A stretch of 49,926 bases of DNA from Cnuella takakiae. Lineage in GTDB: Bacteria > Bacteroidota > Bacteroidia > Chitinophagales > Chitinophagaceae. The translations under genes were made by a program, and so were the position numbers. A model generated the notes under the pieces. That model did no database searches. It was given only the letters and a program-made list of their open reading frames with translations, and was not told the origin of the DNA. How positions within the stretch are numbered: position 1 is the stretch's first letter; every line of letters starts with the position of its first letter. The stretch covers positions 2,456,145 to 2,506,070 of the forward strand of contig NZ_MTFE01000010.1 of NCBI RefSeq assembly GCF_001953305.1. Reading direction: 5' to 3'. Of the stretch, positions 14,272-48,279 are shown piece after piece.

Positions 14272-15483
14272 ATGAACGACACCTCGAACGAACAACAGAA
14301 GAACCATAAGCTTCATCCTACCACGCAGGCCATCCGCACTCACACCGAGCGCACGCAGCAGATGGAACATTCATCACCCATGTTCCTTACTTCTTCGTTT
14401 TGTTTCGACAACGCGGAAGACATGCGGGCTGCCTTTGCCGATGAAACGGATGATAATATCTACACCCGTTTTTCCAATCCTTCGGTACAGGAGTTTATCG
14501 ATAAAGTTTGTGTGCTTGAAGGCGCCGAAAGCGGCTTTGCCACCGCCAGCGGCATGAGTGCGGTCTTTGCTTCCTTTATGGCTTTAATGAAAGCCGGCGA
14601 CCACCTGGTGGCCTGCAAATCGGTATTTGGTTCTACCCATACGGTTATCACCAAGTTCCTGGGCAGGTACGGCATTGAATATACCTATGTAGACACAGAT
14701 GCCACCGCAGCAGAATGGGAAGCAGCGATGCGGCCCAATACAAAGATGGTATACCTGGAAACGCCTACCAATCCCGGCCTCGACCTGGTGGACCTGCAAA
14801 TGGTGAGCGCCATCACCCGGAGCCGCAACATCATCCTGAACGTAGACAACTGTTTTGCCACACCCATTGGCCAGCGGCCGCTGAAGTTTGGCGCCGACCT
14901 GGTGATCCACAGCGCCACCAAGTGGATGGATGGACAGGGCCGTGTGCTGGGTGGGGTAGTGGTGGGCCGCCCCGACCTGATCAAGGAAGTGTATGCATTT
15001 TGCCGCAGCACAGGCCCCGCAATGTCGCCATTTAACGCCTGGGTGCTGAGCAAGAGCCTCGATACCCTGCATGTGCGGATGGAGCGTCATGCTGCCAATG
15101 CGCTGCACCTGGCAAAAGCATTGGAAGGTCACCCAGCATTGAGTTGGGTGAAATATCCTTTCCTGTCTTCACACCCGCAGTTTGCCATTGCCCAAAAGCA
15201 AATGCTGAATGGTGGCGGTATTGTTTGTTTTGAGCTGAAGGGCGGTATTGAAGCTGGTCGCAATTTCCTCAACAGCCTCCAATTGCTTTCCCTTACAGCC
15301 AACCTGGGCGACGCCCGGTCCATTGCCTCGCACCCCGCAAGCACTACCCATGCCAAGCTCACCGAAGCCGAGCGGATGGATGTGGGGATCACGCCGGGCC
15401 TGATCCGGATTTCAGTGGGATTGGAGTATGCGGAGGATATTGTAAATGATATCAAGCAGGCGCTAAACCCCCTGTCCCCCTAG
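14272..15483 (+). CDS. metZ: PLP-dependent O-acyl-homoserine sulfhydrylase (MetZ/MetY type)
   Basis: It joins sulfide to O-acetyl- or O-succinyl-homoserine to make homocysteine, the direct sulfhydrylation route. The 403-residue protein is a Cys/Met-metabolism PLP enzyme: Lys217 in HSATKWMDGQG is the Schiff-base lysine, Asp192 lies in NVDNCFATP, and YTRFSNP (about 64-70) is the phosphate-binding motif. ATG 14272 is chosen over an upstream in-frame TTG at 14224 that lies in repeat-like sequence. With metX close by and cysI upstream, sulfide supply and use are encoded together. The last residues (PLSP) and the stop codon are supplied by the 160-bp palindromic element that starts at 15468. Confidence 0.9.
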   Translation: MNDTSNEQQKNHKLHPTTQAIRTHTERTQQMEHSSPMFLTSSFCFDNAEDMRAAFADETDDNIYTRFSNPSVQEFIDKVCVLEGAESGFATASGMSAVFASFMALMKAGDHLVACKSVFGSTHTVITKFLGRYGIEYTYVDTDATAAEWEAAMRPNTKMVYLETPTNPGLDLVDLQMVSAITRSRNIILNVDNCFATPIGQRPLKFGADLVIHSATKWMDGQGRVLGGVVVGRPDLIKEVYAFCRSTGPAMSPFNAWVLSKSLDTLHVRMERHAANALHLAKALEGHPALSWVKYPFLSSHPQFAIAQKQMLNGGGIVCFELKGGIEAGRNFLNSLQLLSLTANLGDARSIASHPASTTHAKLTEAERMDVGITPGLIRISVGLEYAEDIVNDIKQALNPLSP

Positions 15484-15627
15484 AGGGGGAACTTAGGCCG
15501 TGGTGTTCGTCGCAATTGTACAATACCTTAAGCTTTAGTAGCACAAACAACAAAGCCACTCCGCAAAGAGTGGCTTTGTTGTTAATAAGGTTGATTGACC
15601 TGAGTTCCCCCTTCAGGGGGACAGGGG
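15468..15627. repeat. 160-bp palindromic element, copy 1
   Basis: The left arm (15468-15499) begins CCCCCTGTCCCCC and runs through AGGGGGAACTTAGG. The right arm (15599-15627) is its near-complement, ending GGGGGACAGGGG. Each arm can also fold alone through CCCCC/GGGGG. A 16-bp terminator stem sits inside. Copies 2 (33493-33655) and 3 (48120-48279) have the same arms and almost the same length. The element fills the space between the convergent stop codons of metZ and ytxJ and overlaps the metZ stop. Confidence 0.88.
15546..15583. terminator. Bidirectional terminator inside palindromic element copy 1
   Basis: AACAACAAAGCCACTC (15546-15561) pairs perfectly over 16 bp with 15568-15583 across the loop CGCAAA. 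A-rich on one side and T-rich on the other, it should stop transcription from both metZ and ytxJ. Confidence 0.8.
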
Positions 15628-15630
15628 ATG

Positions 15631-15966
15631 CTATGCGGCCTTCGCCTGCTCCATGATCTCGTCCATCGAAATACCCATATGGCTTTCGTCGTACACGCAC
15701 TCGCCGTTGCGTACTACCAGTACCTGGGGCGACTCATGGTGCACATGAAACACTTCTGCAACCTTGTTGCTCAGGTGGCGGTAGGCAATCAGGTCGAGGA
15801 AATAAAAGTCAATGTCAGAGGGCTGGTCGGCCTTCTGCAACCGGGACAATGCAACGGATGAAATAGAGCAACGGGTGCTGTGCTTGAAAATCACCTGGGG
15901 CTTATCCTGGCTGCGGGCTATAATCTGTTTGATCTGTTCGTCTTCTGTGAGATGTATCCAATGCAT
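15631..15966 (-). CDS. ytxJ: YtxJ family bacillithiol-system protein (monothiol bacilliredoxin-like)
   Basis: A 111-residue thioredoxin-fold protein matching the YtxJ/DUF2847 family, which is linked to bacillithiol in Bacillota and Bacteroidota. The key site is HSTRCSISSVAL with a single cysteine, Cys33, in the place of the thioredoxin CxxC, as in monothiol bacilliredoxins. It is thought to remove bacillithiol from mixed disulfides on proteins; the reaction is inferred from the family. It starts 15 bp after the stop of a small lipoprotein gene on the same strand, so the two are probably one transcript, and it sits beside methionine-synthesis genes. Confidence 0.85.
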   Translation of the reverse strand: MHWIHLTEDEQIKQIIARSQDKPQVIFKHSTRCSISSVALSRLQKADQPSDIDFYFLDLIAYRHLSNKVAEVFHVHHESPQVLVVRNGECVYDESHMGISMDEIMEQAKAA

Positions 15967-15981
15967 ATCGCGGTTCTTTGT

Positions 15982-16110
15982 TTAGCCTCTCCATTTACTG
16001 TTTCGCTCGGTGTTCATAGGACAGCCATACTTGCTACGGGTAGCGGTGCAGGATGCCATGCTTATAATGGTGATTGCCAGGAGGCCGAAGGCGATGATTT
16101 TGTTTTTCAT
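15982..16110 (-). CDS. Small (42-residue) lipoprotein upstream of ytxJ
   Basis: The frame reads MKNKIIAFGLLAITIISMAS-C on the minus strand: two lysines, a hydrophobic run and a lipobox ending at Cys21, then only 21 residues of mature protein (TATRSKYGCPMNTERNSKWRG) with a second cysteine in a YGCP motif. It ends with TAA 15 bp before ytxJ. The full signal-peptide logic and the coupling to ytxJ argue that it is real, though short. It is expected to be anchored in the outer or inner membrane facing the periplasm. No known family was recognised. Confidence 0.7.
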   Translation of the reverse strand: MKNKIIAFGLLAITIISMASCTATRSKYGCPMNTERNSKWRG

Positions 16111-16248
16111 GACCAAAATGGATTTGCGTTAAAAACGGCGATCTTTGCCGGATATTTTGCGCAAATATATAAACCTTTAAACACGTGAGGCGGGGCGGGT
16201 TTTAATCCTTAACAGTTTGCCCGCACCCTATCCTAAGACTTTTTGCTC

Positions 16249-17613
16249 ATGAACCTACATTTTATTTCCATCGGCGGCAGCGTGATGCACCAGTTAGCCA
16301 TAGCACTTAAGCGAAAAGGATACCATATTACCGGCTCCGATGATGAAATTTTCGAACCCTCCCGTTCCAACCTGGAGGCCGAGGGGCTGTTGCCCCAAAC
16401 CATGGGCTGGAATCCAGACTATATTCTGCCAGGTTTGGATGCGGTGATCCTGGGCATGCATGCCAAGGCCGATAACCCTGAGCTGGCAAAAGCCAAAGAG
16501 CTGGACCTGCCCATATACTCTTTCCCTGAATACATCTACCAGGAAAGCAAGGAAAAGAAAAGGGTAGTGGTAGGCGGCAGCCATGGCAAAACCACCACTA
16601 CCTCCATGATCATGCACGTGCTGCGCACCGCCGGCAAGGAGTTTGACTACCTTGTGGGCGCCCGCCTCGAAGGTTTTGACCAGAGTGTCAATATCACCGA
16701 GGCCCCGGTAATTGTTTGTGAGGGCGACGAGTACCCCGCCAGTACCCTCGAAAAGCGTCCCAAGTTCCATTTTCTCTTCCCGCATATTGCCGTACTTACC
16801 GGTATTGCCTGGGACCATATCAACGTATTTCCCACTTTTGATTTTTACCTGGAGCAGTTCCGCATCTTCCTGCAAAAGATTGAACCCAACGGCTCGCTGG
16901 TGTACAATGAAACGGATGCTGTACTCCGCGAACTGGTGGAAGCCAACCGCAGGGAGGATATACAGTACCTGCCATATGGCGTAACGCAGCATACCATTGC
17001 CGGAGGCAAAACCACGATCACCATCGATGGGCAAAGCAGCGAACTAAAGGTTTTTGGCAACCACAACCTGCTGAACCTCCACGCCGCCTGGCTGGTGACC
17101 CAGCAACTGGGAATTGGTGCCGAACAGTTTGTACAGGCTATGAGCAGCTTTACCGGGGCGGCCAAGCGCCTGGAACTGCTTGCACAAAATGATAACACCA
17201 CCATTTACCGCGATTTCGCCCATGCGCCTTCCAAGGTAAAAGCAACCGTAGATGCTGCACGCCAGCAGTTTCCCGACCGCCGGATTATCGGCTTGCTGGA
17301 ACTGCACACCTATAGCAGCCTCAACGAGGCATTCATGACCGAGTACAAGGGTGCACTGGATGGCGCCGACAGCGCTGCCGTTTTTTACAGCAAACACGCC
17401 CTTGAATTGAAGCGGATGCCCGACCTGTCCAAAGCCGTTGTGGAGTCCGGCTTTGCCAAAGAGGGGTTGCAGGTGCTCAATACCCGTGCGGAAATAGAAC
17501 AGTGGCTGCAACAACAGGATTACAGCAACAGCGTTGTACTGTTTATGAGTTCGGGCAATTACGACGGGCTGGATGTGGCAGAGACTGCAAATAACATTGC
17601 CGGAAAAGCCTGA
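16249..17613 (+). CDS. mpl: UDP-N-acetylmuramate:L-alanyl-gamma-D-glutamyl-meso-diaminopimelate ligase-like Mur ligase
   Basis: A 454-residue Mur ligase that probably joins recycled murein tripeptide to UDP-MurNAc in the cytoplasm (Mpl). The N-terminal Rossmann-like domain begins NLHFISIGGSVMHQLA, followed by the ATP-binding loop GSHGKTTTT at about 110-118, a central domain with the WDHINVF motif, and the C-terminal FAHAPSKVKATVDAARQQFPDRR segment, which is characteristic of Mpl rather than MurC. ATG 16249 is used because an in-frame TTG two codons earlier adds nothing. No division-cluster genes are nearby, which fits a recycling enzyme. Confidence 0.85.
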   Translation: MNLHFISIGGSVMHQLAIALKRKGYHITGSDDEIFEPSRSNLEAEGLLPQTMGWNPDYILPGLDAVILGMHAKADNPELAKAKELDLPIYSFPEYIYQESKEKKRVVVGGSHGKTTTTSMIMHVLRTAGKEFDYLVGARLEGFDQSVNITEAPVIVCEGDEYPASTLEKRPKFHFLFPHIAVLTGIAWDHINVFPTFDFYLEQFRIFLQKIEPNGSLVYNETDAVLRELVEANRREDIQYLPYGVTQHTIAGGKTTITIDGQSSELKVFGNHNLLNLHAAWLVTQQLGIGAEQFVQAMSSFTGAAKRLELLAQNDNTTIYRDFAHAPSKVKATVDAARQQFPDRRIIGLLELHTYSSLNEAFMTEYKGALDGADSAAVFYSKHALELKRMPDLSKAVVESGFAKEGLQVLNTRAEIEQWLQQQDYSNSVVLFMSSGNYDGLDVAETANNIAGKA

Positions 17614-17616
17614 GCA

Positions 17617-17714
17617 GATTTCGTATCTGGGATTTCGAATTTCGGTAGTTGTTGATGGAATGTAACATGCTACTGGCGTACAGTGGCCGAAATCCGAAAT
17701 CCCAAATCCGAAAT
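17617..17714. repeat. Inverted GAAATCC-type arms between mpl and the exonuclease gene
   Basis: The left arm (17617-17645) contains GATTTCGTATCTGGGATTTC. The right arm (17687-17714) is rich in CCGAAATCCGAAATCCC and is roughly the reverse complement. The same words recur at 22091-22122 and 22426-22454, so this is a dispersed family. Confidence 0.7.
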
Positions 17715-17722
17715 GCCCTAAG

Positions 17723-17755
17723 TTTGCCCCTGAAAACACCAATACTTTACCTTTA
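17723..17755 (+). promoter_or_regulatory. Candidate promoter of the exonuclease/glycosyltransferase pair
   Basis: TTTG (17723-17726) is followed after 21 bp by TACCTTTA (17748-17755), one base off the TAnnTTTG -7 box. It lies 22 bp before the ATG at 17778 and just after the right arm of a repeat. Confidence 0.4.
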
Positions 17756-17777
17756 CCCCTTTTAAGAATTACGGGTC

Positions 17778-18548
17778 ATGCTACAACTTACCAAGCCTAT
17801 TGCGTTTATTGACATTGAGGCTACGGGTTCCAACCCCGCTACAGACCGGATCGTGGAGATCGCCATCATCAAATACCTGGTGGACGGCACCCGCAATGTA
17901 AAGCGCAAGCTGCTGAACCCGGAAATGCCTATCCCGCAACAGGTGATCGACATTCATGGCATCACCGACGAGATGGTAAAGGATGCACCCACCTTCAAAC
18001 AGGCAGCCCAGGAGATCAAACAGTTCCTTACCGGCTGCGATATCTCGTGCTACAATGCTTACCGTTTGGACATGCCCCTGCTGGTAGAGGAATTTATCCG
18101 CGCCGGTGTGGAGTTTGACATGAAAAACCGCAAGCTGGTGGACGTGCAAAAGATCTTCCACCAAATGGAGCAGCGCACGCTTTCGGCTGCTTATAAATTT
18201 TACTGCAACAAAACCATCGAGAACGCCCATAGTGCCGAGGCCGATGCGGCTGCCACTGCCGAGATACTGGAAGCACAGGTACAGCGTTACCCACAGTTGG
18301 GCAACAACCTCGAGTCCATTTTAAAAGTTATTGGCGAAGACCAGATCATTGATTTTGCCCGCCGTTTTGTGTACGACGATAAAGGCGTGGAAATCTTTAA
18401 CTTCGGAAAACACAAGGGCCGCGCTGTGGCCGACGTGTTGAAGGCCGAGCCGCAATACTACGACTGGATGATGCGCGGCGAATTTCCCATGAACACCAAG
18501 CAGAAGCTCACCGAGATCTACACCCGCTCGATGCTCAAAAAACAATAA
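17778..18548 (+). CDS. DEDDh 3'-5' exonuclease (DnaQ-like) with ExoX-like C-terminal domain
   Basis: A 256-residue protein whose N-terminal 175 residues form an RNase-T/DnaQ exonuclease: motif I FIDIEATG with Asp12 and Glu14, motif II CYNAYRLDMPLL, and motif III HSAEADAAATAEI with the DEDDh histidine and aspartate. The C-terminal part (about 205-256, FNFGKHKGRAVADVL...YYDWMMRGEFP) is the short domain often attached to such exonucleases, as in ExoX-like proteins. It is likely a proofreading or repair nuclease but not the main PolIII epsilon. It is followed after 11 bp by the glycosyltransferase gene, suggesting co-transcription without functional connection. Confidence 0.87.
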   Translation: MLQLTKPIAFIDIEATGSNPATDRIVEIAIIKYLVDGTRNVKRKLLNPEMPIPQQVIDIHGITDEMVKDAPTFKQAAQEIKQFLTGCDISCYNAYRLDMPLLVEEFIRAGVEFDMKNRKLVDVQKIFHQMEQRTLSAAYKFYCNKTIENAHSAEADAAATAEILEAQVQRYPQLGNNLESILKVIGEDQIIDFARRFVYDDKGVEIFNFGKHKGRAVADVLKAEPQYYDWMMRGEFPMNTKQKLTEIYTRSMLKKQ

Positions 18549-18559
18549 GCCTGTCACTG

Positions 18560-19318: not shown

Positions 19319-19344
19319 TGGAACCCGGTAGCTGTAAGTCCTGG

Positions 19345-19545
19345 GCTGCAAGCTTCAAGTATGCAGCATTCATTGTGATAGCTTCTTTCAATGGAGTGCC
19401 TAAAAAATAATTGGAAAAGGCCTGCTTTACTGCGGGCCTTTTCCATGATAGATAGCACCTAAACGGTTTTGCCATCCACCCTATTTCGGACAGGTTGTAC
19501 CGTTTTCACTTTGGTTGTGGATAATAATAACTTGAAGCTTGCAGC
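19345..19545. repeat. Outer inverted arms flanking a terminator between two convergent genes
   Basis: GCTGCAAGCTTCAAGT (19345-19360) is the exact reverse complement of 19530-19545. They enclose the terminator at 19413-19444. Related AGCTTGCAGCTT words recur at about 41163-41198. The 269-bp gap holds no gene. Confidence 0.7.
19413..19444. terminator. Bidirectional terminator between the glycosyltransferase and the ABC permease
   Basis: GGAAAAGGCC (19413-19422) pairs with GGCCTTTTCC (19435-19444). The stem extends inward by three more pairs, including one G-U. Confidence 0.75.
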
Positions 19546-19587
19546 TAATAGCTTGCAACTTTTCCCCCAGCTCTTAAATAAATGGCA

Positions 19588-23465: not shown

Positions 23466-23668
23466 AGCCCGTAGGGCTTTAATCTGAATAGCCGCCGGTG
23501 TAACCGGCGGAATCAATAGTCCTCAATATCCCTTTACGCCCAACCCCGTAGGGGTTGAACAGCCATAGAGGTTCAACCCCTACGGGGTTGGATGTTCTAA
23601 AAACATTACCTGTTTCTCTTTACCGCCGGTTGTACTGGCGGCTATTCAGATTCGAGCCCTACGGGCTC
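23466..23668. repeat. 203-bp nested palindrome (AGCCCGTAGGGCT family)
   Basis: The outer arms AGCCCGTAGGGCT (23466-23478) and AGCCCTACGGGCT (23655-23667) are exact complements. Inside them lie TCTGAATAGCCGCCGGT and its one-mismatch complement, and at the centre CAACCCCGTAGGGGTTGAAC pairs with GTTCAACCCCTACGGGGTTG. Each arm block is also a hairpin of its own. The rest of the 616-bp gap (23350-23965) holds the simple repeats and, at about 23847-23916, a degenerate tandem of ACTTCGTACTTCC-like words; no gene was seen. Confidence 0.85.
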
Positions 23669-23965: not shown

Positions 23966-26845
23966 ATGAGAAAAATTTTTTGTCTGTTGGCCCTCGTGGG
24001 TGCAACAACAATGCACGCTCAAAAGAAGCCGCTCGATCACACCATATATGATGGCTGGCAAAGTATTGGAGAACGCCACCTTTCCGCCGATGGCAAATGG
24101 GTGGCCTATGCCGTCAACCCGCAGGAGGGAGATGGCACCCTGTACGTGCAAAGCATTGCCGACAAGCGTATCGTCCGGACGATTCCACGCGGCTATTCCG
24201 CTTTGATCAGCGCCGACAGCCGCTACCTGGTTTGCCGCATCAAGCCTTTTTATGCCGATACCCGTGCGGCACGCATCAAAAAGAAAAAGTCGGAAGAAAT
24301 GCCCAAGGATTCGCTGGCGGTGCTGGCCCTTGGAACCGATAGCCTGGTGAAAAAAGCGGGCATCGCTTCCTACAAAATACCCCAGCAATCGGGGCAGTGG
24401 CTGGCTTACCACAAAGCGCAGGTGCCCACCAGGGCTTCGGTAAATACCGCTACGCAAAAAACAGTGGATAGCCTGCAGAAAAAGGTGGATTCGCTGATGC
24501 AACTGGTGGTACAGATAAAGCAGGTAAAGGGCGGCAGCGCCGATGGGATGGATGCAGAAGACCCTGCTGATGGTGCCGCCGGCGCCAACACCGGTACCGA
24601 CCTGGTGCTGCGCAACCTGGCCACAGGCAAGGAGCACACCTTTGCCAATATCGGCGATTATGTATTTGATAAAAAAGGTAACCGCCTACTGATGAAGGCG
24701 CTGAAGGCAGCGAAGGATTCAGCAATTGCAAACGCCATAGTGTTGTACGATTTGGCCAAGGATAAGTTGGATACCATCTTAAAGGGTGGTAATGATTTCC
24801 GTGGGTTGGCATTAAGCGAAGACGGCGCCAAAGCTGCCTTTGTTGCCGAACGCGACAGCAGCACCAAGGCCTTGCAAAAGTTTTATGGTGTGTACCTCTA
24901 CCAGCAAGGCATGGACAGTGCCCGCCGCATTGTGTTCAACAACACACCGGGCCTGCCGCAACAGTGGCGGGTGAGCGAACATAGCAATATCACCTTCAGC
25001 AAAAGCGGCAACCGCCTGTTTTTTGGTACGGCGCCCATTGCTGCTCCCAAAGACACATCGCTGGCCGAGATCGACCAGGTAAAGCTGGACATCTGGCATT
25101 ATAACGACGATTACCTGCAATCGCAACAACTGTTTACGTTGCAGCAAGACCTGAAGCGGAACTATACTGCTTTATTTGATATTGCTGCGCAAAAGATGCT
25201 GCAACTGGCGGACAAGAACTTTCCGGTGGTACTGCAAACAGGGGATGGTGATGGCCGCTATTTCTTTGTGGCTACGGACACCGGACGCAGGGTGCAGGCA
25301 CAATGGAGCGGCCGCACCCTCAAAGACCTGTATGCCATTGAACCCACAACCGGCAAGAAGATCCTGCTTGCTACTAAACTCGACGGACAAACTTATGCTT
25401 CCACCACGGGTAAGTACATGCTCTGGTACGATGCTGCCAAACGCCAGTATTTCTGCTGGGATGGTACTGCCACCCGCCAGGTATCGAAAGGTATTCCGCA
25501 CCCGCTTTTTGATGAAGAACACGACACGCCCATCGAGCCCGGTCCTTATGGTGTAATGGGCTGGCACAAGGCTGACAGCTTTGCGTATGTATATGACCGC
25601 TATGATGTATGGCGTTTGGATCCCAGTGGAAACTTGCCTGCCAAAAATTTGTTTGGGACTGCATCGGGTCGCAAGCAGGCAATCACCTACCGTTTTGAGC
25701 GCACAGATACCACCAACAGGTTTATCTCTTTTGACGAGCCGCTTGTGTTCAGCGCTTTTGACAACAAAACCAAGAAGAAAGGTTTGCGCCTGTTCCAGGG
25801 TGGACAGCTGACCGGCAGCGATTTCCTGCAGCCATTCAGTTTGGGATCGCCCATCAAAGCTAAGGATGCCGCAGTGTGGGCTTATACCAAGGAAAGCTTT
25901 ACCCATGCGCCCAACTTGTTTGTAAGCGAAAACTTGGCAAACGAGCAGCGCCTGTCGGCCACCAACCCGCAACAGGCTCAATACAACTGGGGCACAGCCG
26001 AACTGGTGCGTTGGAAAACCTTTGATGGCAAACAAACGGAAGGCATCCTGTACAAACCCGAAGATTTCGACAGCACCAAGCAATACCCCATGATTGCTTA
26101 TTTCTACGAAAAGCTGTCTGATGGTTTGTATAGCTACAATGCGCCCGCACCCACGCCCAGCCGCCTCAATATTTCTTTTTATGTAAGCCGTGGCTACCTG
26201 GTGTTTGCACCCGATATCAGCTATACAAAAGGACAGCCGGCAAAGGATGCTTACAACTACATCGTGAGCGGCGTACAGCATCTGGCCCGCAACAAGTGGG
26301 TGGACAAAAAGAACCTTGCGGTTCAGGGGCAAAGCTGGGGTGGCTACCAGGTGCTGGCCCTGTTGGTACAAACCAATATGTTTAAAGCTGCATGGGCGGG
26401 TGCGCCGGTTGCCAACATGACATCGGCTTACGGTGGTATCCGTTGGGAGAGTGGTGTAAACCGCCAGTTCCAGTACGAGAAAGGCCAAAGCCGTATTGGG
26501 TATACCCTTTGGGAGCGCCCCGATCTCTACCTCCAGAACTCGCCCCTGTTCCAGTTGCCCAAAATCAAAACGCCACTGGTAATTATGAGCAACGACGCCG
26601 ATGGTGCCGTGCCCTGGTACCAGGGTATTGAGCTCTTTACCGCCATGCGCCGCCTCAACAAACCCGTATGGCTGCTCAACTACAATGGAGAGGCCCACAA
26701 CCTGGTGGAGCGCAAGAACCGTAAGGATATCCAAATGCGCCAGCAACAATATTTCGACTGGATGCTGAAAGGCGCCCAACCCACTAAGTGGATCACCGAT
26801 GGTGTGCCTGCGGTAGAGAAAGGAAAGGAGTGGGGGTTGTTGTAG
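23966..26845 (+). CDS. S9 family serine peptidase (prolyl oligopeptidase type), exported
   Basis: The 959-residue protein has a signal peptide (MRKIFCLLALVGATTMHAQ), a long beta-propeller region (about 30-690), and a C-terminal alpha/beta-hydrolase peptidase domain. The catalytic triad is visible: Ser790 in GQSWGGYQ, Asp879 in SNDADGAVPW and His911 in NGEAHNLVE. It probably cleaves oligopeptides in the periplasm or at the cell surface. It is longer than typical 650-750-residue members because of an extended N-terminal region, including a K-rich insert near residues 103-113. ATG 23966 is chosen because it begins the signal peptide. Confidence 0.92.
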   Translation: MRKIFCLLALVGATTMHAQKKPLDHTIYDGWQSIGERHLSADGKWVAYAVNPQEGDGTLYVQSIADKRIVRTIPRGYSALISADSRYLVCRIKPFYADTRAARIKKKKSEEMPKDSLAVLALGTDSLVKKAGIASYKIPQQSGQWLAYHKAQVPTRASVNTATQKTVDSLQKKVDSLMQLVVQIKQVKGGSADGMDAEDPADGAAGANTGTDLVLRNLATGKEHTFANIGDYVFDKKGNRLLMKALKAAKDSAIANAIVLYDLAKDKLDTILKGGNDFRGLALSEDGAKAAFVAERDSSTKALQKFYGVYLYQQGMDSARRIVFNNTPGLPQQWRVSEHSNITFSKSGNRLFFGTAPIAAPKDTSLAEIDQVKLDIWHYNDDYLQSQQLFTLQQDLKRNYTALFDIAAQKMLQLADKNFPVVLQTGDGDGRYFFVATDTGRRVQAQWSGRTLKDLYAIEPTTGKKILLATKLDGQTYASTTGKYMLWYDAAKRQYFCWDGTATRQVSKGIPHPLFDEEHDTPIEPGPYGVMGWHKADSFAYVYDRYDVWRLDPSGNLPAKNLFGTASGRKQAITYRFERTDTTNRFISFDEPLVFSAFDNKTKKKGLRLFQGGQLTGSDFLQPFSLGSPIKAKDAAVWAYTKESFTHAPNLFVSENLANEQRLSATNPQQAQYNWGTAELVRWKTFDGKQTEGILYKPEDFDSTKQYPMIAYFYEKLSDGLYSYNAPAPTPSRLNISFYVSRGYLVFAPDISYTKGQPAKDAYNYIVSGVQHLARNKWVDKKNLAVQGQSWGGYQVLALLVQTNMFKAAWAGAPVANMTSAYGGIRWESGVNRQFQYEKGQSRIGYTLWERPDLYLQNSPLFQLPKIKTPLVIMSNDADGAVPWYQGIELFTAMRRLNKPVWLLNYNGEAHNLVERKNRKDIQMRQQQYFDWMLKGAQPTKWITDGVPAVEKGKEWGLL

Positions 26846-26855
26846 TGTTAGGATT

Positions 26856-26991
26856 TTAGTTTTTGGTTTTTGGTTTTTGGTTATCCAAAAAGAAACAGGC
26901 CTGTTGCAATTGTAACAGGCCTGTTTCTTTTTCTGTAAAATGATCTGCTACAAACTTGCAACAAGAAACTAAAAACTAAAAACCAAAAACC
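26856..26991. repeat. AAAAACTAAAAACC-type inverted arms around a terminator
   Basis: The left arm (26856-26880) reads TTAGTTTTTGGTTTTTGG and so on; the right arm (26965-26991) is AAAAACTAAAAACCAAAAAC in the complementary sense. Further copies lie at 28576-28600, 39829-39860, 39906-39937 and, in looser form, 49801-49827. Confidence 0.75.
26887..26932. terminator. Bidirectional terminator with a 19-bp perfect stem
   Basis: AAAAAGAAACAGGCCTGTT (26887-26905) pairs over its full length with 26914-26932 around an 8-nt loop. A and T runs on the outer ends suit termination from both the S9 peptidase gene and the convergent gene at 27003. Confidence 0.85.
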
Positions 26992-28356: not shown

Positions 28357-28444
28357 CTGTCATGCCGAACTTGTTTCGGCATCTCCCTCTACTATTGTAA
28401 ACTCCGATTTCAGCGGGGATGCCGAAACAAGTTCGGCATGACAG
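28357..28444. repeat. Palindromic repeat with 27-bp perfect arms (ATGCCGAACTTGTTTCGGCA family)
   Basis: Arms at 28357-28383 and 28418-28444 are exact reverse complements over 27 bp, built around CATGCCGAACTTGTTTCGGC. The 34-bp loop is not conserved. The rest of the 312-bp gap (28299-28610) holds the terminator at 28525-28554 and AACTAAAAACT repeats at 28576-28600, and no gene. Confidence 0.85.
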
Positions 28445-33040: not shown

Positions 33041-33469
33041 ATGGCAGCACAAAATTTTAAAAACCACCGCCAGATTGTACCCAGTTTTCATTTGCTCACC
33101 GGCTTACCGCTTGGGGCCCTGGTGTTTGGCGCTATACGCAACCTGTTCACCACATCTGCCGATAACTTGTATGAAGCTTCGCTAATTGCACTTGCATCCC
33201 TGATACTGTTTAGCCTTTATGCACATTCCCGGCTTTTTGCGCTTAAAGCACAGGACCGGGCCATCCGAGCCGAAGAGAGCCTGCGTTATTTTCAACTCAC
33301 CGGCAGGCGCTTCGATTCGCGTTTAAGCACCAGCCAGATCATTGCCCTGCGTTTTGCTTCCGATGAAGAGTTGCCAGTATTGGCGCAGGAAGCTGCCGAA
33401 CGAAATCTTTCCAATAAAGAAATTAAGCAGCAGATTAAGAATTGGCGGGCGGATACGTACAGGGTTTAA
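33041..33469 (+). CDS. DUF6526-like small membrane protein
   Basis: A 142-residue protein with two membrane helices in the first 70 residues (FHLLTGLPLGALVFGAIRNLF and LIALASLILFSLYAHSRLFAL), then a conserved cytoplasmic part: LKAQDRAIRAEESLRYF, GRRFDSRLSTSQIIALRFASDEEL and a closing IKNWRADTYRV. This pattern matches a conserved Bacteroidota family (DUF6526 as remembered) of unknown function. ATG 33041 replaces an upstream TTG at 33005. Confidence 0.75.
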   Translation: MAAQNFKNHRQIVPSFHLLTGLPLGALVFGAIRNLFTTSADNLYEASLIALASLILFSLYAHSRLFALKAQDRAIRAEESLRYFQLTGRRFDSRLSTSQIIALRFASDEELPVLAQEAAERNLSNKEIKQQIKNWRADTYRV

Positions 33470-33492: not shown

Positions 33493-33655
33493 CCCCCTGT
33501 CCCCCAGAAGGGGGAACTTAGGTCAAACTTAACTACCAACAATAGCGCCCCTCCGAATGAAAGGGGCGCTATTGTTTATCCATCTTCGATTAAACGTAAT
33601 TCGATTTGCCCTGAAGCATTCCGGCCTAAGTTCCCCCTTTTAGGGGGACAGGGGG
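33493..33655. repeat. 160-bp palindromic element, copy 2
   Basis: The left arm (33493-33524) has CCCCCTGTCCCCC, then AAGGGGGAACTTAGGTC. The right arm (33624-33655) is its complement, ending GGGGGACAGGGGG. It fills the space between the stop codons of the convergent DUF6526-like and DoxX genes, ending 2 bp from the latter. Confidence 0.88.
33538..33576. terminator. Bidirectional terminator inside palindromic element copy 2
   Basis: AACAATAGCGCCCCT (33538-33552) pairs perfectly over 15 bp with 33562-33576. The core AGCGCCCCT/AGGGGCGCT is shared with copy 3. Confidence 0.82.
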
Positions 33656-33657: not shown

Positions 33658-34068
33658 TTACTTCCCAATAAACTTATCCAAACTCGCACTTCCCGGCCCG
33701 GCAAAAAGGATAGCGATATATGCGGAAAGATATAATGCTGCCATTTCGCCTTCGCCAAACAACTGTCCTTTGTGTGCATAGAAAAGCGCAATGCCCATGG
33801 CTATAATCAGGGGAAGTACCGCCAGGCGGGTAAAGAGTCCGAGGATGATAAATACGGAACAAAAGAATTCGGCAAAGACCACCATCGAAAGGGATGTGGT
33901 GGAGCCTACACCAAAGGGATCGGCAAAGCGGCCCGACTTCTCGGCAAAGTGCATCAGTTTGTCGAGGCCATGGTTTACCAACATCAAAAAGCCTACACCC
34001 AGCCGCAATACCAGCATGGCAAAGGAAAATGCGCCATCAGAAACACGGGTGCTGAATAGTTTTTTCAT
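33658..34068 (-). CDS. DoxX family membrane protein
   Basis: A 136-residue protein with about four hydrophobic segments and the DoxX family layout: LRLGVGFLMLVNHGLDKL in the first third, then VVFAEFFCSVFIILGLFTRLAVLPLIIAMGIA, and a final AALYLSAYIAILFAGPGSASLDKF. The family includes thiosulfate:quinone oxidoreductase subunits and many proteins of unclear role; this one gives no sign of the former. The start at 34068 is used because the upstream frame to 34161 carries no homologous sequence. Confidence 0.85.
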   Translation of the reverse strand: MKKLFSTRVSDGAFSFAMLVLRLGVGFLMLVNHGLDKLMHFAEKSGRFADPFGVGSTTSLSMVVFAEFFCSVFIILGLFTRLAVLPLIIAMGIALFYAHKGQLFGEGEMAALYLSAYIAILFAGPGSASLDKFIGK

Positions 34069-39202: not shown

Positions 39203-39828
39203 TGTTTCAACAATTACAGGACTATCTGTTTCAGTATAAAACCGTGGCTATTCCGGGGGTGGGCACCTTCGAAGTGATTGACCGGCCCGCCAGCCTCGAT
39301 GTAGCCAACCAATTGCTGCTTCCGCCATCCTATGCAATCCAGTTCAGCCGCCAGGCAGCAGTGCCGCGGCACCAACTGCAGGCTTTAGCAGCCGGCTTCG
39401 ACAACAATGCCGAATCTGCTGAAGCTGCCTTGTCACAATTTGGAACAACCCTGCAGCAACAGCTGCAACAAGCCCCACTTGCCTGGCAGGGTGTGGGTGC
39501 TTTGGAATGGAGTGGCAGCCAGGTACAGTTTGTGCCCACAACGGTTGATGGCATGCTGTCGGCTGTACCTGCTCAACGGGTACTGCGCGAAAATGTAACG
39601 CATACGGTGCTGGTAGGCGAGCAGGAAATGCGCTACACCGCCGATGAATACGAAGCTACCTTGCAGCAGGACAAGCCCCGCGACTGGTTCCTCATCATCG
39701 GCTGGATCATTGCCCTTGTATCCATTCTTTTTCTTCTTTATCATTTCTATCTCAATAACTGGGCACCGCATGCTTCCGGCCTTCGGCAGAAACCGGCAGT
39801 AAGCGAGATGCCGGTGCAATACAAATAG
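39202..39828 (+). CDS. Membrane-anchored HU-like (CCDC81-type) protein
   Basis: The 208-residue protein begins with a CCDC81-type HU-like segment (LQDYLFQYKTVAIPGVGTFEVIDRPASLD to about residue 130) of the kind found in Bacteroidota. It then has one membrane helix at about 161-184 (WFLIIGWIIALVSILFLLYHFY) and only 24 residues after it. The N-terminal part should be cytoplasmic. Related proteins often carry a peptidoglycan-binding SPOR domain after the membrane helix; none is present here. GTG at 39202 is the start, overlapping the barrel gene stop. A link between nucleoid or cytoplasm and envelope is inferred, not shown. Confidence 0.72.
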   Translation: MFQQLQDYLFQYKTVAIPGVGTFEVIDRPASLDVANQLLLPPSYAIQFSRQAAVPRHQLQALAAGFDNNAESAEAALSQFGTTLQQQLQQAPLAWQGVGALEWSGSQVQFVPTTVDGMLSAVPAQRVLRENVTHTVLVGEQEMRYTADEYEATLQQDKPRDWFLIIGWIIALVSILFLLYHFYLNNWAPHASGLRQKPAVSEMPVQYK

Positions 39829-39937
39829 TTTGTGGTTTTTAGTTTTTGGTTTCTGGTTGGTAGCATTTTCTAATATGCCTTATGACCAACTTTAGCGGGT
39901 GCCTCAACTAAAAACTAAAAACCAAAAACTAAAAACC
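39829..39937. repeat. AAAAACTAAAAACC-type inverted arms before the methyltransferase gene
   Basis: TTTGTGGTTTTTAGTTTTTG (start of 39829-39860) is complemented by AACTAAAAACTAAAAACC (within 39906-39937). The 45-bp centre has no strong hairpin, in contrast to the copy at 26856-26991. Confidence 0.7.
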
Positions 39938-39955
39938 TTTTATTTTTCAGCCGCT

Positions 39956-40861: not shown

Positions 40862-40939
40862 CTTGTTCACGTTGCAGGCTGCTGATTGCACGATGCAGGT
40901 ACTGGAGCTAACGGGAATATTGAAAACAAGTCACTTCAA

Positions 40940-41028
40940 GATGGCATTTTTAGCCCACGGTTTCAACCGTGGGTAAGCAGCAGGCATCGATCCAAATTCA
41001 AACCGTTTCAACGGTTTCTATAATAGCT
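40940..41028. repeat. CCCACGGTTTCAACCGTGGG + AAACCGTTTCAACGGTTT repeat, copy 1
   Basis: Two hairpins in a row: CCCACGGTTTCAACCGTGGG at 40954-40973 and AAACCGTTTCAACGGTTT at 41000-41017. The 88-bp unit is found again at 46002-46090 in the same order and spacing. It lies in the 339-bp convergent gap 40862-41200, which holds no gene. Confidence 0.85.
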
Positions 41029-42025: not shown

Positions 42026-42064
42026 AGGGCAAAAATAGGGGAAGGATGGTGGGTAGCTGAAACC

Positions 42065-42139: not shown

Positions 42140-42148
42140 ATAAAAGCA

Positions 42149-45100: not shown

Positions 45101-45850
45101 AGGTGCAAAAACCCCTTCCAGAAATTGCTCTTTGGCGGGCTTTGCAGGCTGTTTTGCATCTTCAACAAAATACCTTCCATCGGGGCCGGACACCAGCCCT
45201 GTACCATAGGAAAGATGGAAACTTCCTTCCCTGATGGTAAACTTATTGTCCTTGCAGTTTTCCGGTTTCAGGTAAAAACTGGATTCCGGATCGGGACCCA
45301 TATCACCGTCCCTGGAAAATTTCTTACCGGTGGCGCCGCCAAATGCCCAGAAGAACTCGGCTGGCTCATGCAGGTTTGTAAAATGCGTTTGGATGATACA
45401 TCCTTCTGCATCGGCCAAGGCCAATATGGTTAATTGCAAGCTGCCTTTTCCCAGCAATCTATCCTTGATGGTGTATAGCCTTGCTCCGGGGCGGTATCTT
45501 GCAATGATGGTATCTGCTTCGGTAAGCCATTTTGTTTTGCCACCGACCCCAATACCGAACTTGAGGTTGCCACCCATGCCGGGCATATAAAAGGCAAACT
45601 CGGGGCGGTCGCCGGTTTCAACCCTGAAGGCAGTATGGGTGCCATAAAGCGCCCTTGTAAACTGCCTGTTGCCATTGGTGATAACAAAGTCCTGCCCGTC
45701 GGGTTTATACCTTAATTCCAATTGTTGGTCGTGCCATGTTTTGCTGGAAAGTTGTATTGGATAGGCTTCTTGCGCCTTACTGGCGAAGGCAGAAAGGAGC
45801 AGGAGGGAAGCTGCGGCAATTTTGGGAAAGGCAATCCGGTAATTGATCAT
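42149..45850 (-). CDS. DUF4450-domain, six-hairpin glycosidase-like exported protein
   Basis: A 1233-residue protein with a signal peptide (MINYRIAFPKIAAASLLLLSAFASKAQ). The N-terminal region (about 30-320) contains the ALYGTHTAFRVETGDRPEFAFYMPGMGGNLKF stretch recognised as DUF4450. The centre (about 325-760) looks like an (alpha/alpha)6 glycosidase barrel, with HYDMNLVFIDQLFRHFAWTGD, WPVIKRHLDWETRNFDVDSNGLYD and SWMPYMWSLNNVAIAE; the acidic catalytic residues cannot be named safely. The C-terminal third is built of beta-domains. It probably acts on plant or algal polysaccharides in the periplasm. No SusC/SusD genes are adjacent. ATG 45850 is chosen over 45898 because it gives the signal peptide. 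Confidence 0.8.
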   Translation of the reverse strand: MINYRIAFPKIAAASLLLLSAFASKAQEAYPIQLSSKTWHDQQLELRYKPDGQDFVITNGNRQFTRALYGTHTAFRVETGDRPEFAFYMPGMGGNLKFGIGVGGKTKWLTEADTIIARYRPGARLYTIKDRLLGKGSLQLTILALADAEGCIIQTHFTNLHEPAEFFWAFGGATGKKFSRDGDMGPDPESSFYLKPENCKDNKFTIREGSFHLSYGTGLVSGPDGRYFVEDAKQPAKPAKEQFLEGVFAPASELKLSDAKHLAAPANLWQSTSENAPVLAGKLKAANKSTHYFSIYNPATRQPLLYKDLASVFTRAEFVRKELASRIKVNTPDPFINTIGGALAVASDAIWDAPTYMHGSIGWRMRLPGWRGAYTADVLGWHDRAKTHLGAYAQSQFTSPPSGPILPDTAMHLARSTEKTGIGMFTSGYINRDPNGANPRPHHYDMNLVFIDQLFRHFAWTGDTAFMRQTWPVIKRHLDWETRNFDVDSNGLYDAYAAIWASDALQYSGGDVTHTSAYNYLGFKQAAKIATLLGEDPTPYQRQAEKILKAMNQVLWLPEKGRFAEFQDRLGNRLLHPAPGIWTIYHSIDSEVPTPFQAYQQLRYVDKEIPHIPIRAKGLDDGGYYTIATTSWMPYMWSLNNVAIAESMHLALANWQAGRTDEAFKLFKSEVLQSMYLGGSPGNIVQISRFDAARGEAYRDFADPVGMFSRALVEGLFGIVPNALDNTLTIRPGIPAAWNFASFSTPDIAFDFKRRGNRDQYTIQPALPFEPSLVLQVKAQRQVQQVLVNGRPANWKNLADAVGKLQIQVQAPYANRYDITIVWQGAKPASSTKEQTYVQGQVLKQAFSEARVLQVYDPQGALGNTEVRSSGFSAAIKGATGNYTVFAQISQGQLSWWLPICFIISTPWQLLAVNGQEENSPAFRLQNNIGVATTAQVSVNTFRTEVQVEAGKVSDIITVPEGALLPGTNKVIITTAPGKVQTLHWIYWKGRFSGKQEPVDLGAHFNDRVRQIFKNKYLSPRPLATTLQLPWQGIGDWPHPHESFEVADSGLRKLAGPAGEILLPQGIRFRTPGQAGVNNILFTSQWDNYPKEQTIPLSGRATHAWLLMAGSTNPMQSQLANGIVEVHYTDGTKDSLVLRNPETWWPIEQDYYTDGFAFRLKQARPIRVHLATGNVVDGKTSKAQYNGQKIPGGAATVLDLPLDGTKILQSLTLKTVANDVVIGLMAVTLNRVD

Positions 45851-46001
45851 GTGGCAAGCGGAGATAAGCTTTAAAAATATTGCTTGCTGCGGGGGCATTG
45901 TCCTGTACTATCCCGAGGAGCGTGCAGGGTTGGTTTTACGCGGAGGACGCAGAGGAGCAGAGGGCGCAGGGGGGTAGTTATAATACCAGTTAGCTTTTGA
46001 T

Positions 46002-46090
46002 GATGACCATTTTAGCCTACGGTTTCAACCGTGGGTTTAGCAGCATCATCATTAAGCGCCAAACCGTTTCAACGGTTTGATAACAGCTTA
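46002..46090. repeat. AAACCGTTTCAACGGTTT repeat, copy 2
   Basis: This copy has the same two-hairpin layout as 40940-41028, with the first hairpin slightly altered (CCTACGG/CCGTGGG) and the second (46061-46078) identical. It lies between two same-strand genes in the 292-bp gap 45851-46142, beside a CGCAGAGGAGCAGAGG-like word; no gene was seen there. Confidence 0.82.
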
Positions 46091-46142
46091 TTTGGTAGGA
46101 TAAGTAGTAAAAAGCTTCACCTCTAATGTAAGGAAAGACAGT

Positions 46143-47273
46143 TTAATCCAGCATTTCCTTGGCCACCTGTTGGGCCACTACCGGTGCCAGTGCCACGCCC
46201 ATCCCGCTCATGCGCACGGCTGTATACACACCCGGTGCCGCCTCGCCAATAATGGGCATTTTTTCAGAACCCATGGCCATGATGCCACTCCACCGGTCGG
46301 TGATGGTATAGCGGCCCTGGTGGTTGGGTAAGATGACATCCGCGAGGTAGGTTTCCAAAGCTTCCTGGATGGTATTGCTGGTGTCGAACTGGTGGGTGCG
46401 CTCGCCTTCAAAATCCCTATTGCGGGCACCGCCAAGCAGCACCCGGTTGCCCAGGTTGCGGAAATAATAATATCCTTCTTCTGAATGGAAAGTGCCTTCA
46501 AAAGGCAGGTTGTCGATTGGAGAAGTTAAGATCACCTGGCCGCGGGCCGGCATTATATCTGCCTCGGGTAGCAGTTCTTTTGCAAAAGCATTGGTGCATA
46601 ATAATAGTTGGCTACAGCTAAAATCAAGACCTTGCCCGGTTGACAGGTGTATGGTATTACCACTATAACTGTAATCCATAACCGAAATGCCATTGAGCAC
46701 CTGTACGCCCATTCCCTGTACCTCGTACAGCAGGGCCTGGAGCAGTTTGCCTGAGTGCAGGCATCCTTCAAATTTGTTTTTCACCAGTTGTGTCGTTTGC
46801 CCGAAGCCAAACTCAGGAATGCGGTCGTTGGCTGTGCGGAAGGTCTTTTTGCTACCGGTAATATCAGCCAGCAGGGAATTGATATAACCCATATTGGCCC
46901 GCAGTTCTTCCGGGTCCGTACCATGTGGATATAACTCGTATCCGCCTGTAAGCGCGAAGTCAATCTTTTCGGCCTTAAAAAATTTCTGTATTCTTTCCAA
47001 TCCTTTGAACCGCATGGCTACCAGTTCCAGCATTTTGTCGGTACCCATCAGGTGTCCGTCGTGTACCAGTTCGCTGAGGCTGCCAAAACAGGCAAAGCCG
47101 GCATTGCGGGTGCTGGCACCTGTCGGGATCAGGCCACGCTCCAGGATGGTAATCCGCAAGAGCGGTTGCTTGCGCTTGAGTTGAAATGCACTCCACAGGC
47201 CTACAAAGCCGCTGCCGATGATGATGATGTCTTGTGGTGCAAAAAAGGTTTCTTTTTCCCAGATGCTGATCAT
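46143..47273 (-). CDS. FAD-dependent oxidoreductase (DAO family)
   Basis: A 376-residue cytoplasmic flavoprotein of the D-amino-acid oxidase/glycine oxidase family. The FAD-binding GSGFVGLWSAFQL is at 20-32, followed by ILERGLIPTGASTRNAGFACFGSLSEL, the region that contacts the flavin, and a C-terminal MPIIGEAAPGVYTAVRMSGMGVALAP segment that closes the FAD site. Such enzymes oxidise amines or amino acids; the closest well-known groups are gamma-glutamylputrescine and glycine oxidases. The substrate is unknown. Confidence 0.86.
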   Translation of the reverse strand: MISIWEKETFFAPQDIIIIGSGFVGLWSAFQLKRKQPLLRITILERGLIPTGASTRNAGFACFGSLSELVHDGHLMGTDKMLELVAMRFKGLERIQKFFKAEKIDFALTGGYELYPHGTDPEELRANMGYINSLLADITGSKKTFRTANDRIPEFGFGQTTQLVKNKFEGCLHSGKLLQALLYEVQGMGVQVLNGISVMDYSYSGNTIHLSTGQGLDFSCSQLLLCTNAFAKELLPEADIMPARGQVILTSPIDNLPFEGTFHSEEGYYYFRNLGNRVLLGGARNRDFEGERTHQFDTSNTIQEALETYLADVILPNHQGRYTITDRWSGIMAMGSEKMPIIGEAAPGVYTAVRMSGMGVALAPVVAQQVAKEMLD

Positions 47274-47333
47274 GGTGGAAGGGTTATGGCGCCAAGTTAA
47301 ATGGATTTAACCTGCTGTTTGGTATTGGCCGGT

Positions 47334-47341
47334 TAAATTTG
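47334..47341 (+). promoter_or_regulatory. Candidate -7 box of the DUF4197 gene
   Basis: TAAATTTG matches TAnnTTTG exactly and lies 17 bp before the ATG at 47359. TTTG occurs at 47318-47321, closer than the usual -33 spacing, so only the -7 box is proposed. Confidence 0.4.
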
Positions 47342-47358
47342 GAACATCGATACCTACT

Positions 47359-48117
47359 ATGCAAAAACATTGGATACCCCTGCTGGCTGCTACCATGTTC
47401 GCTTCGGCTATACATGCCCAAACCATCCCAAACGTATTTAGAAAGAATGGCAAAAACGACAGTGCCGCCACACAGGTGAAGCTGCCCAATATATTTGGGA
47501 AAGGCAAAGCCGGTACTAACCTGAGTGCTACCGAAGTGAGTGCTGGCCTTAAGGAAGCGTTGACCATTGGTGCGCAAAGAGCCACTGGCAAGCTTTCGGT
47601 TGCTGATGGTTTTTTCCGGGATGCCGCACTGAAAATCCTGATGCCTCCGGAGGCTAAGAAGCTGGAAAGCACCCTGCGCAGCATGGGCATGAATCGGCAG
47701 GTAGATGCTGCCATCCTGGCCATGAACCGTGCTGCTGAAGATGCTGCGGGCAGTGCCTCCAAAATCTTTGTGGATGCGGTTAAGGGAATGACCATCCAGG
47801 ATGCGCTGGGCATTCTTCGGGGTGGTGATAATGCTGCCACCAATTTTTTAAAAGATAAAACAACGGCATCCCTGGTTTCGGCTTTTCAACCCGTGATTGG
47901 CGAGTCGTTGAAAAAGGTAGATGCCACGCGTCATTGGACTACCATCACTACGGCATACAATACCGTGAGCCGCGAAAAGGTCAATACGGACCTGACCGGC
48001 TATGTTACGGAAAAAGCCCTGGCTGGTATTTTCTTGCAACTGTCGCAGGAGGAACAATCCATCCGTAAAGATCCGGCAGCGCGGACAACGGAGTTGTTGA
48101 AGAAGGTTTTTCAATAG
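47359..48117 (+). CDS. DUF4197 family exported protein
   Basis: A 252-residue protein with a signal peptide (MQKHWIPLLAATMFASAIHAQ), a variable linker and the DUF4197 domain (about 55-250): LKEALTIGAQRATGKLSVADGFFRD, MPPEAKKLESTLRSMGMNRQVDAAILAMNRAAEDA, and the family-typical GMTIQDALGILRGGDNAATNFLKDKT. It is helical and probably periplasmic or lodged at the envelope. No function is established for the family. It is divergent from the FAD oxidoreductase gene across 85 bp. Confidence 0.88.
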   Translation: MQKHWIPLLAATMFASAIHAQTIPNVFRKNGKNDSAATQVKLPNIFGKGKAGTNLSATEVSAGLKEALTIGAQRATGKLSVADGFFRDAALKILMPPEAKKLESTLRSMGMNRQVDAAILAMNRAAEDAAGSASKIFVDAVKGMTIQDALGILRGGDNAATNFLKDKTTASLVSAFQPVIGESLKKVDATRHWTTITTAYNTVSREKVNTDLTGYVTEKALAGIFLQLSQEEQSIRKDPAARTTELLKKVFQ

Positions 48118-48119
48118 TA

Positions 48120-48279
48120 CCCCCTGTCCCACTAAAGGGGGTACTTAGGTCGGAGTGCTTGTTCATTCCACCAGAAATTTTAGTTGATAAGAATAAAATA
48201 AAAGCGCCCCTCTGTTCAGGAGGGGCGCTGTGCTAATAGAAATGTTTGACCTAAGTCTCCCCTTTAGGGGGACAGGGGG
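48120..48279. repeat. 160-bp palindromic element, copy 3
   Basis: The left arm (48120-48151) reads CCCCCTGTCCCACTAAAGGG and then GGTACTTAGGTC; the right arm (48248-48279) is its near-complement ending GGGGGACAGGGGG. It begins 2 bp after the DUF4197 stop and ends next to the lpdA stop codon at 48280, so it makes up the whole intergenic region. Confidence 0.88.
48203..48229. terminator. Bidirectional terminator inside palindromic element copy 3
   Basis: AGCGCCCCTC (48203-48212) pairs with GAGGGGCGCT (48220-48229) around TGTTCAG. The same core is used in copy 2, while copy 1 has a different stem. Confidence 0.78.

Follow-up and report, generated by a model that had tools for sequence, protein, structure and literature searches.

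A 160-bp palindromic element behind stop codons in Cnuella takakiae, a probable gene-less derivative of a mobile DUF559 element

What is a 160-bp palindrome that recurs between converging genes, and what could have carried it there? The question is raised by a stretch of 49,926 nucleotides (the window, positions 2456145-2506070 of contig 1 in the 5.70-Mb genome of Cnuella takakiae, family Chitinophagaceae), in which three copies of one such element were found. We think it probable that the element is a gene-less, terminator-carrying derivative, similar to a miniature inverted-repeat transposable element (MITE) or to a REPIN (a hairpin-forming pair of repetitive extragenic palindromes, REPs), of a mobile element with a DUF559 gene related to homing endonucleases. 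The full form, of about 500 bp, would consist of one DUF559 endonuclease gene enclosed by two inverted arms, each made up of a C-block, a short hairpin and a tail. In the 160-bp form the gene would be absent, with a two-way intrinsic terminator in place.

The arm is built as CCCC-TGT-CCCCC-TNNA-GGGGG-AACTTAGG, and its consensus is CCCCTGTCCCCCTNNAGGGGGAACTTAGG. The original prediction, made from the window, had given three copies with lengths of 160, 163 and 160 bp between convergent genes. Copies, coordinates, lengths and flanks were all as claimed:

15468..15627, + strand: copy 1, 160 bp, left end of the CCGG type and right end of the TTGA type
15468..15497, + strand: left arm of copy 1, with C-block, spacer TGT, hairpin CCCCC-TAGA-GGGGG and tail AACTTAGG; the upstream gene has its stop codon in the loop (TAG)
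15546..15583, either strand: two-way terminator hairpin of copy 1
15599..15627, - strand: right arm of copy 1, inverted
33493..33655, - strand: copy 2, 163 bp, in the orientation opposite to copies 1 and 3
33493..33522, + strand: left arm of copy 2
33538..33576, either strand: two-way terminator hairpin of copy 2
33625..33655, - strand: right arm of copy 2
48120..48279, + strand: copy 3, 160 bp
48120..48149, + strand: left arm of copy 3
48203..48229, either strand: two-way terminator hairpin of copy 3
48250..48279, - strand: right arm of copy 3

It had also been said that no gene for the movement of the element lies in the window, which is correct. A candidate with the same arms lies elsewhere, as a broken DUF559 gene in the same genome and as DUF559 genes in three sister species. 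These three (G003, G001 and G007; genomes and loci bear our own G and L numbers) were found when 17 genomes were searched with PF04480, the DUF559 profile. The G003 element (L139) is 539 bp long, with perfect arms of 31 bp around an intact open reading frame (ORF) of 148 amino acids (L139:1426-1872, PF04480 E 4e-30) whose stop codon lies within the right arm. The G001 element has 526 bp and perfect arms of 33 bp around its DUF559 gene, and the G007 element holds a DUF559 gene within 497 bp.

The four DUF559 proteins with CCCCTGT arms formed one clade in each of three trees (100/99 with 45 rows, 99/96 with 62 and 99/91 with 72), and each of the four genomes also has DUF559 genes elsewhere in the tree. 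Arm type matched protein lineage in 4/4 cases in all three trees, the matching being assessed for the CCCCTGT type alone. The first tree covered 45 of 60 loci and the third added ten. The third tree omits only partial matches in frames of 940-1,692 amino acids, loci of the phylum at contig ends (and L134), two hits in G028 and hits of the phylum for which no locus was fetched. In a PF04480 search across all 18 genomes of the genus, the clade was present in 4 of the 7 genomes with at least six arm matches and in 0/11 with at most two; every PF04480 match was placed except short partial ones in long frames.

Other DUF559 genes carry different arms of similar build, such as TAACCTCACCCCCGGCCCCTCTCC-AAA-GGAGAGGGGAGCG in G004. 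A flanking inverted repeat with a score of at least 15 was detected at 23 of 46 DUF559 loci, including the four that raised the idea (46 of 60 loci were tested, the rest having fewer than 3,200 bases). In a second set, drawn from genomes new to the test, such repeats were present at 9 of 17 loci (of 20, three standing at contig ends) and, in addition, at 2 of 3. For the 46 and the 17 loci together, 32/63 DUF559 loci in Bacteroidota have flanking inverted repeats, compared with 0/766 control placements (0/300 in the window, 0/190 in relatives and 0/276 in the flanks of the same loci). A stem of at least 5 bp was found in 25 of the first 32 DUF559 arms, and the other seven had none by the stem test. 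PF04480 is present in 170 of the 296 Bacteroidota genomes searched, its places across the phylum being taken among the matches listed. At one of the loci (L157), a DUF559 domain lies in frame in a putative DNA methyltransferase gene, between peptide repeats of the SPHPSPSGRG type.

DUF559 elements also interrupt host genes, which, judged from their sequences rather than from a family search, encode tryptophan 2,3-dioxygenase, leucyl-tRNA synthetase, methionine synthase (MetH) and an M23-type peptidase. In-frame elements are found in the dioxygenase of G006 and G009, in the synthetase of G004 and G011 (and of G007, where the contig ends within the right flank) and in the peptidase of G003, G014 and G015. 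C. takakiae itself has a DUF559 insert in MetH, which is partly masked and not a multiple of three in length; it is the exception among 12 inserts with both ends readable, the other 11 all being multiples of three. Short gene-less inserts with C-rich hairpins occupy the same places in the dioxygenase of G011, the synthetase of G001 and the MetH of G006 and G014. The other orthologues read, at least nine, have 12-66 bases of unrelated loop there. The right arm of the peptidase insert is CCTAAGTTCCCCC-ACC-GGGGGACAGGGGG in G014, which is the arm type of the window, and slightly different in G015. Because of the shared arms, the single protein clade and the presence or absence at the same host-gene sites, the element family is supported as derived from DUF559 elements, and this link sets the window element above an ordinary repeat.

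A profile of 22 DUF559 sequences, in which E, D, H, R and N columns are invariant, matched the endonuclease-like protein of PDB 3hrl (E 1.5e-33) and the 'Mobile intron protein' of PDB 3r3p (E 9.3e-7). The latter we take to be the EDxHD homing endonuclease I-Bth0305I. By these profile matches DUF559 proteins belong to the EDxHD/Vsr nuclease superfamily, whose homing branch fits the allelic presence and absence described above. Like EDxHD homing endonucleases and Vsr, DUF559 belongs to this nuclease family by profile, and as in homing, insertions stand at the same place in some orthologues with others empty. Unlike in those systems, no intron or intein was noticed around DUF559, the arms are hairpins and there are many ectopic gene-less copies. 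A DUF559 gene has been assigned to the EDxHD homing family (PMC9403480), and a Caulobacter DUF559 protein has been described as Vsr-like (PMC12907096).

How common is the gene-less form in C. takakiae? The exact arm core GGGGGAACTTAGG has 43+38 matches in the genome, and the arm with up to three mismatches has 52+55, that is 107; the reversed patterns have 0 in both cases. We fetched 52 stretches around the 100 arms listed of these 107 and, together with the window, paired the arms with up to seven mismatches and a left-right spacing below 700 bp. Of 120 arm-like matches, 110 formed 55 left-right pairs and 10 were single. For gene calling we used a codon-usage caller of our own, with these stretches as its training set; its starts are rough and it may miss small genes. 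One pair (790099) had too little left flank for the context count. The remaining 54 comprised 31 convergent, 23 tandem (14 and 9) and 0 divergent sites, against 64 convergent and 67 divergent among the 416 gene pairs called in the same stretches, the element junctions included (p=1e-10 for convergent, p=2.6e-4 for divergent). The original statement that the element fills convergent junctions holds for 31/54 copies and fails for the 23/54 in tandem. More generally, the element follows immediately on a stop codon: in 54/54 one or both of the neighbouring genes end toward it.

The genes converging on the three window copies, as called here, are as follows:

14272..15483, + strand: gene left of copy 1, with its stop inside the arm
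15631..15966, - strand: gene right of copy 1, 3 bp from stop to arm
33041..33469, + strand: gene left of copy 2
33658..34068, - strand: gene right of copy 2
47359..48117, + strand: gene left of copy 3
48280..49683, - strand: gene right of copy 3

The gene left of copy 1 had been thought to end before the element, but its stop is the TAG in the hairpin loop of the arm (15481-15483). The loop is TGAA, TAAA or TAGA, and so contains a stop codon, in 83 of the 97 arms scored. At convergent junctions 8 of 62 gene ends lie 15 bases inside an arm and four lie deeper, and the arm-to-stop distance is within -60..25 bp for 61 of the 62. The space outside the element at these junctions has a median of 13 bp. 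At 21 convergent junctions without the element the median gap is 243 bp, and every gap exceeds 30 bp. In 22 of 23 tandem copies the arm is at most 16 bp from the upstream stop.

The length of the element is 155-165 bp in 20 of 31 convergent but only 4 of 23 tandem copies, so the constant length claimed from the window applies mainly to convergent junctions. The other 11 convergent copies have 219-497 bp, several with a second palindrome and one with the broken DUF559 gene. This second palindrome, GGGAACACGGAT..ATCCGTGTTCCC, stands at a similar relative place in the longer copies (G000:C1 469561, 481075, 512137, 1473814, 2819002, 4371454 and others). Arm spacing by itself did not point to an autonomous form: only 2 of 55 pairs exceed 330 bp, and the pair of 587 bp at 1476593 gave no PF04480 match. 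We also considered that two arms were inserted independently around a native gap. At convergent sites this is disfavoured by the length, the homologous interior and the 13-bp leftover; among tandem copies of variable length it may have occurred.

The two ends inside the arms are unlike, one reading CCGGAGT.. and the other ..TGTTTGA, and the unit therefore has a direction. The interior had been described as not conserved, an impression given by the reversed copy 2. When 25 terminator-keeping copies were brought into the same orientation, they aligned over 169 columns with 75% mean column identity. Mean pairwise identity among the oriented copies is 88-90% in the arms and 72% in the terminator; the two flanks that lie between arms and terminator have 49% and 57%.

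Between these flanks is a G+C-rich hairpin of the type AACAACAACGCCCCTC-loop-GAGGGGCGTTGTTGTT, off the centre of the element, with T-rich 3' sides on both strands as read from the alignment. Its stem is 97.7% paired over the 25 copies. In the alignment 33 cells were changed on both sides of the stem, compared with 8.8±2.3 after shuffling (0/500 shuffles reached this), and the signal was lost when the partner was slid by 1-3 columns. The idea that shape and not sequence is selected thus applies to the terminator stem, with its compensatory changes, and not to the whole element, which is homologous once oriented. The predicted two-way intrinsic terminator probably ends transcription from both sides, and at convergent junctions a copy would act as a terminator common to the two genes, or would be retained as one. 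A strong stem-loop, in most cases the terminator, was found in 31/31 convergent and 13/23 tandem copies (p=4.8e-5), scored as the best stem-loop of each interior, which includes the second palindrome in some long copies and the DUF559 remnant in the 497-bp copy.

Such findings might also be expected of a structure made by the host: palindromes at convergent junctions would be selected as two-way terminators or 3'-end protectors, gene conversion would homogenise the arms, and nothing would be mobile. The stem-loop kept in all convergent copies and the covarying stem agree with this explanation. Ten of the 23 tandem copies lack a strong stem-loop, stop codons of genes lie within the element, and the arms are common to gene-carrying and in-gene elements, all of which speak against it.

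Orthologous junctions in relatives bear on the same point. Arms were found in 12 of the 18 genomes of the genus, C. takakiae included, and in 1 of 40 other genomes searched (G028, another genus of the family). When named genomes were scanned for the arms, 21 stretches were obtained, including Flaviaesturariibacter sp. RYN_278, Terrimonas pollutisoli, Flavisolibacter, Paraflavisolibacter caeni and Ferruginibacter. Sister species have their own arm variant GGGGAGACTTAGG, their own length class (273-282 bp in 8 of 9 pairs in G006) and their own terminator. Orthologous junctions were sampled, not counted, among the matches listed (about half of 315). At junction 1473814 an element is present in G006; G005 and G015 are empty there, their stops being 6 and 8 bp apart, and G013 and G014 carry terminator-like hairpins of another kind. 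At junction 1595467, where G005 has no element, its stops are 18 bp apart. Palindrome-bracketed sequences with other arms fill two orthologous convergent junctions (L108 at 1473814 in G014, L114 at 4234117 in G015), and these count in favour of a host-made structure. The patchy presence counts against it, and on balance we regard this explanation as improbable. Multiple copies, fixed arms, orthologous presence and absence, species-specific variants and gene-end location support what the original prediction had offered as one option, a mobile palindrome settled at gene ends.

If the palindrome is mobile, could it be a classical MITE of a DDE transposon with terminal inverted repeats of about 31 bp? 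The element does have inverted ends (AC precedes it in 42/55 copies and GT follows the partner arm in 46/55), about 160 bp and many copies. A target-site duplication of 3-9 bp was found in 0/55 copies at three offsets, and no gene was called between the arms of any of the 54 pairs, all with spacings below 700 bp. Each arm forms a hairpin of its own, and in relatives the gene that such arms enclose is DUF559. We consider a DDE origin very improbable. With bacterial MITEs in general the window element shares the short non-autonomous form and the inverted ends, and differs in the hairpin arms and in that no target duplication and no DDE partner were found.

A closer likeness is to REPINs and bacterial interspersed mosaic elements (BIMEs), which are moved in trans by a Y1 transposase, the REP-associated tyrosine transposase (RAYT). 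If the window family belonged there, the DUF559 genes would be passengers in repeat-rich gaps. Inverted conserved pairs with a spacer are present in many copies (55 pairs), the hairpin ends are paired and conserved, and the spacer is near-constant with compensatory hairpin changes. The elements are intergenic and adjoin stop codons, and an enzyme lineage is tied to the arm type. According to one study, conserved inverted ends, the importance of spacer length and hairpin, and compensatory changes are REPIN features (PMC3116915). According to another, convergent REPs lie mostly less than 20 bp from both ORF ends, closeness to ORF ends is reported for REPs, and GTAG REPs supply stop codons (Di Nocera et al. 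2013, PMC3733652); placement at gene ends is therefore already known for REP elements.

The genome of C. takakiae does contain two RAYT-type genes (PF01797). Their 1.5-kb flanks, inspected by eye, show other palindromes and none of these arms. Inside host genes the presence of arms coincides with that of DUF559, and arms of the CCCCTGT type track one DUF559 clade. The gene between the arms is a Vsr-type nuclease here, the spacer carries a terminator, and the C-rich arm hairpin has a consensus without the GTAG tag, under the tag rule of PMC3733652. Movement by a RAYT is in our view unlikely, though the likeliest of the three alternatives to a DUF559 origin.

The CGTC-tagged REPs and Rickettsia palindromic elements treated in the same source (PMC3733652) are also alike in that they form head-to-head palindromic pairs, have copies inside known genes, include Bacteroidetes among the reported phyla and are said to have no dedicated transposase. 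The rules there for CGTC REPs are a CGTC, TGTC or CCTC tag, a stem of 8-9 bp starting with AT, a loop of 4-5 nt and a CCA-like tail. The window arm, CCCC(C)-TNNA-(G)GGGG followed by AACTTAGG, has a C:G stem of about 5 bp and departs from these rules; the 4-nt loop fits, and the TGTC before the stem may be chance. By the tests made here the window element resembles REPINs but is unusual in what it carries, and it is not a RAYT-linked REPIN, a CGTC REP or a DDE MITE.

The window contains further repeats. Another palindrome family, AGCCCGTAGGGCTT..CCGCCGG, occurs at 23466-23510 and 23623-23667 and a further one, TAGCCCACGGTTTCAACCGTGGG, at 40935-40974 and 45997-46036. By eye, these two families resemble the repeats beside the two RAYT-type genes of the genome (L084, L083). 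The inverted pair CTGTCATGCCGAACTTGTTTCGGCATCTCC at 28357-28444 is similar to a dimer of CGTC/TGTC-tagged REPs. A repeat of the GCTCACAGATGNCACAGAT type has three direct copies and one inverted copy at 12326-12671, and arrays with a 14-bp period, GGTTTTTGGTTTTT-like, are found at 26844-26889, 39827-39858 and 49768-49841.

How might a DUF559 nuclease spread such an element? It would recognise the arms, perhaps as hairpins or cruciforms, and would cut or nick the arms or empty sites; repair would then copy the element to a new or allelic site in a homing-like manner. Such copying would hold the arms of one genome similar to each other and would produce no target duplication, and new copies would persist where they are harmless, behind stop codons or in frame in protein loops. 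A nuclease with repair copying would account for the absent target duplication, for arms so much more alike than the flanks, for the genome-specific arm variants and for survival at harmless places.

Several results weigh against a DUF559 origin. Movement by DUF559 is put forward here from sequence comparison, and no movement was observed; interiors are old, to judge from the identity of the flanks, and recent copying is not evident. An intact DUF559 gene with these arms is found in G003 only, 3/4 being broken: the genes of G001 and G007 have an internal stop, with a frame change as well in G007, and that in the 497-bp copy of C. takakiae is incomplete (profile positions 21-107). In G006, G011 (62% complete) and G015, three of the seven genomes rich in arms, there is no DUF559 of the clade. 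About half of the DUF559 loci have no flanking repeat by the inverted-repeat test, and the arms of an element in another genus (L172) are not multi-copy in G220, with three matches, two of them its own. A stop codon of a long frame lies within 60 bp of an end in 18 of 30 armed DUF559 loci, compared with 24.7% of random points, and the stop-codon placement of DUF559 elements is therefore a tendency and not a rule. In 31 pairs from five sister species, 7 were convergent, 18 tandem, 2 divergent and 4 unreadable. Of the 23 tandem copies in C. takakiae, 13 have their terminator end turned toward the upstream stop, no more than expected by chance.

DUF559 genes between inverted arms are found beyond the phylum as well. 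Armed DUF559 genes were seen on plasmids in three of the six records fetched (of 60 matching). In Deinococcus psychrotolerans (L228) the element, with arms 56 bp long, stands directly behind the paaD stop inside an operon, and in Sphingomonas (L231) it stands between sufB and sufC, again inside an operon; the third is from Pseudanabaena. The records of Picosynechococcus, Synechocystis and E. coli score at most 13. The paaD element is absent from Deinococcus sp. QL22, a relative too diverged for the exact insertion point in paaD-paaZ to be placed. The DUF559 gene ycjD of E. coli, considered as an empty-site model, was set aside, as the three fetched strains lacking ycjD have other genes there; its flanks have no inverted repeat with a score of at least 11.

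Palindrome-armed DUF559 elements may form a mobile class not described before in several phyla (Bacteroidota, with single plasmid cases in Deinococcota, Cyanobacteriota and Alphaproteobacteria), with a homing-like nuclease without intron or intein, hairpin arms, insertion after stop codons or in frame within protein loops, and many gene-less palindromes. We put this forward tentatively, at somewhat less than even chances. The literature searched, which left most subscription papers outside, contained no report linking DUF559 to inverted-repeat arms.

Small palindromic repeats occur widely among bacterial genomes, and some, such as the CGTC class (PMC3733652), have no known mover. If the class is real, palindrome-armed DUF559 elements would move at least part of the REP-like palindromes without a known transposase. 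Here the common arms, the matching phylogeny and the allelic presence and absence tie one palindrome family to a particular endonuclease gene, and the question of the mover becomes testable with one 148-amino-acid protein and defined empty and filled sites. For the neighbouring genes, the element supplies stop codons and, probably, terminators. For the protein family, it would mean a role for PF04480, a common 'domain of unknown function'.

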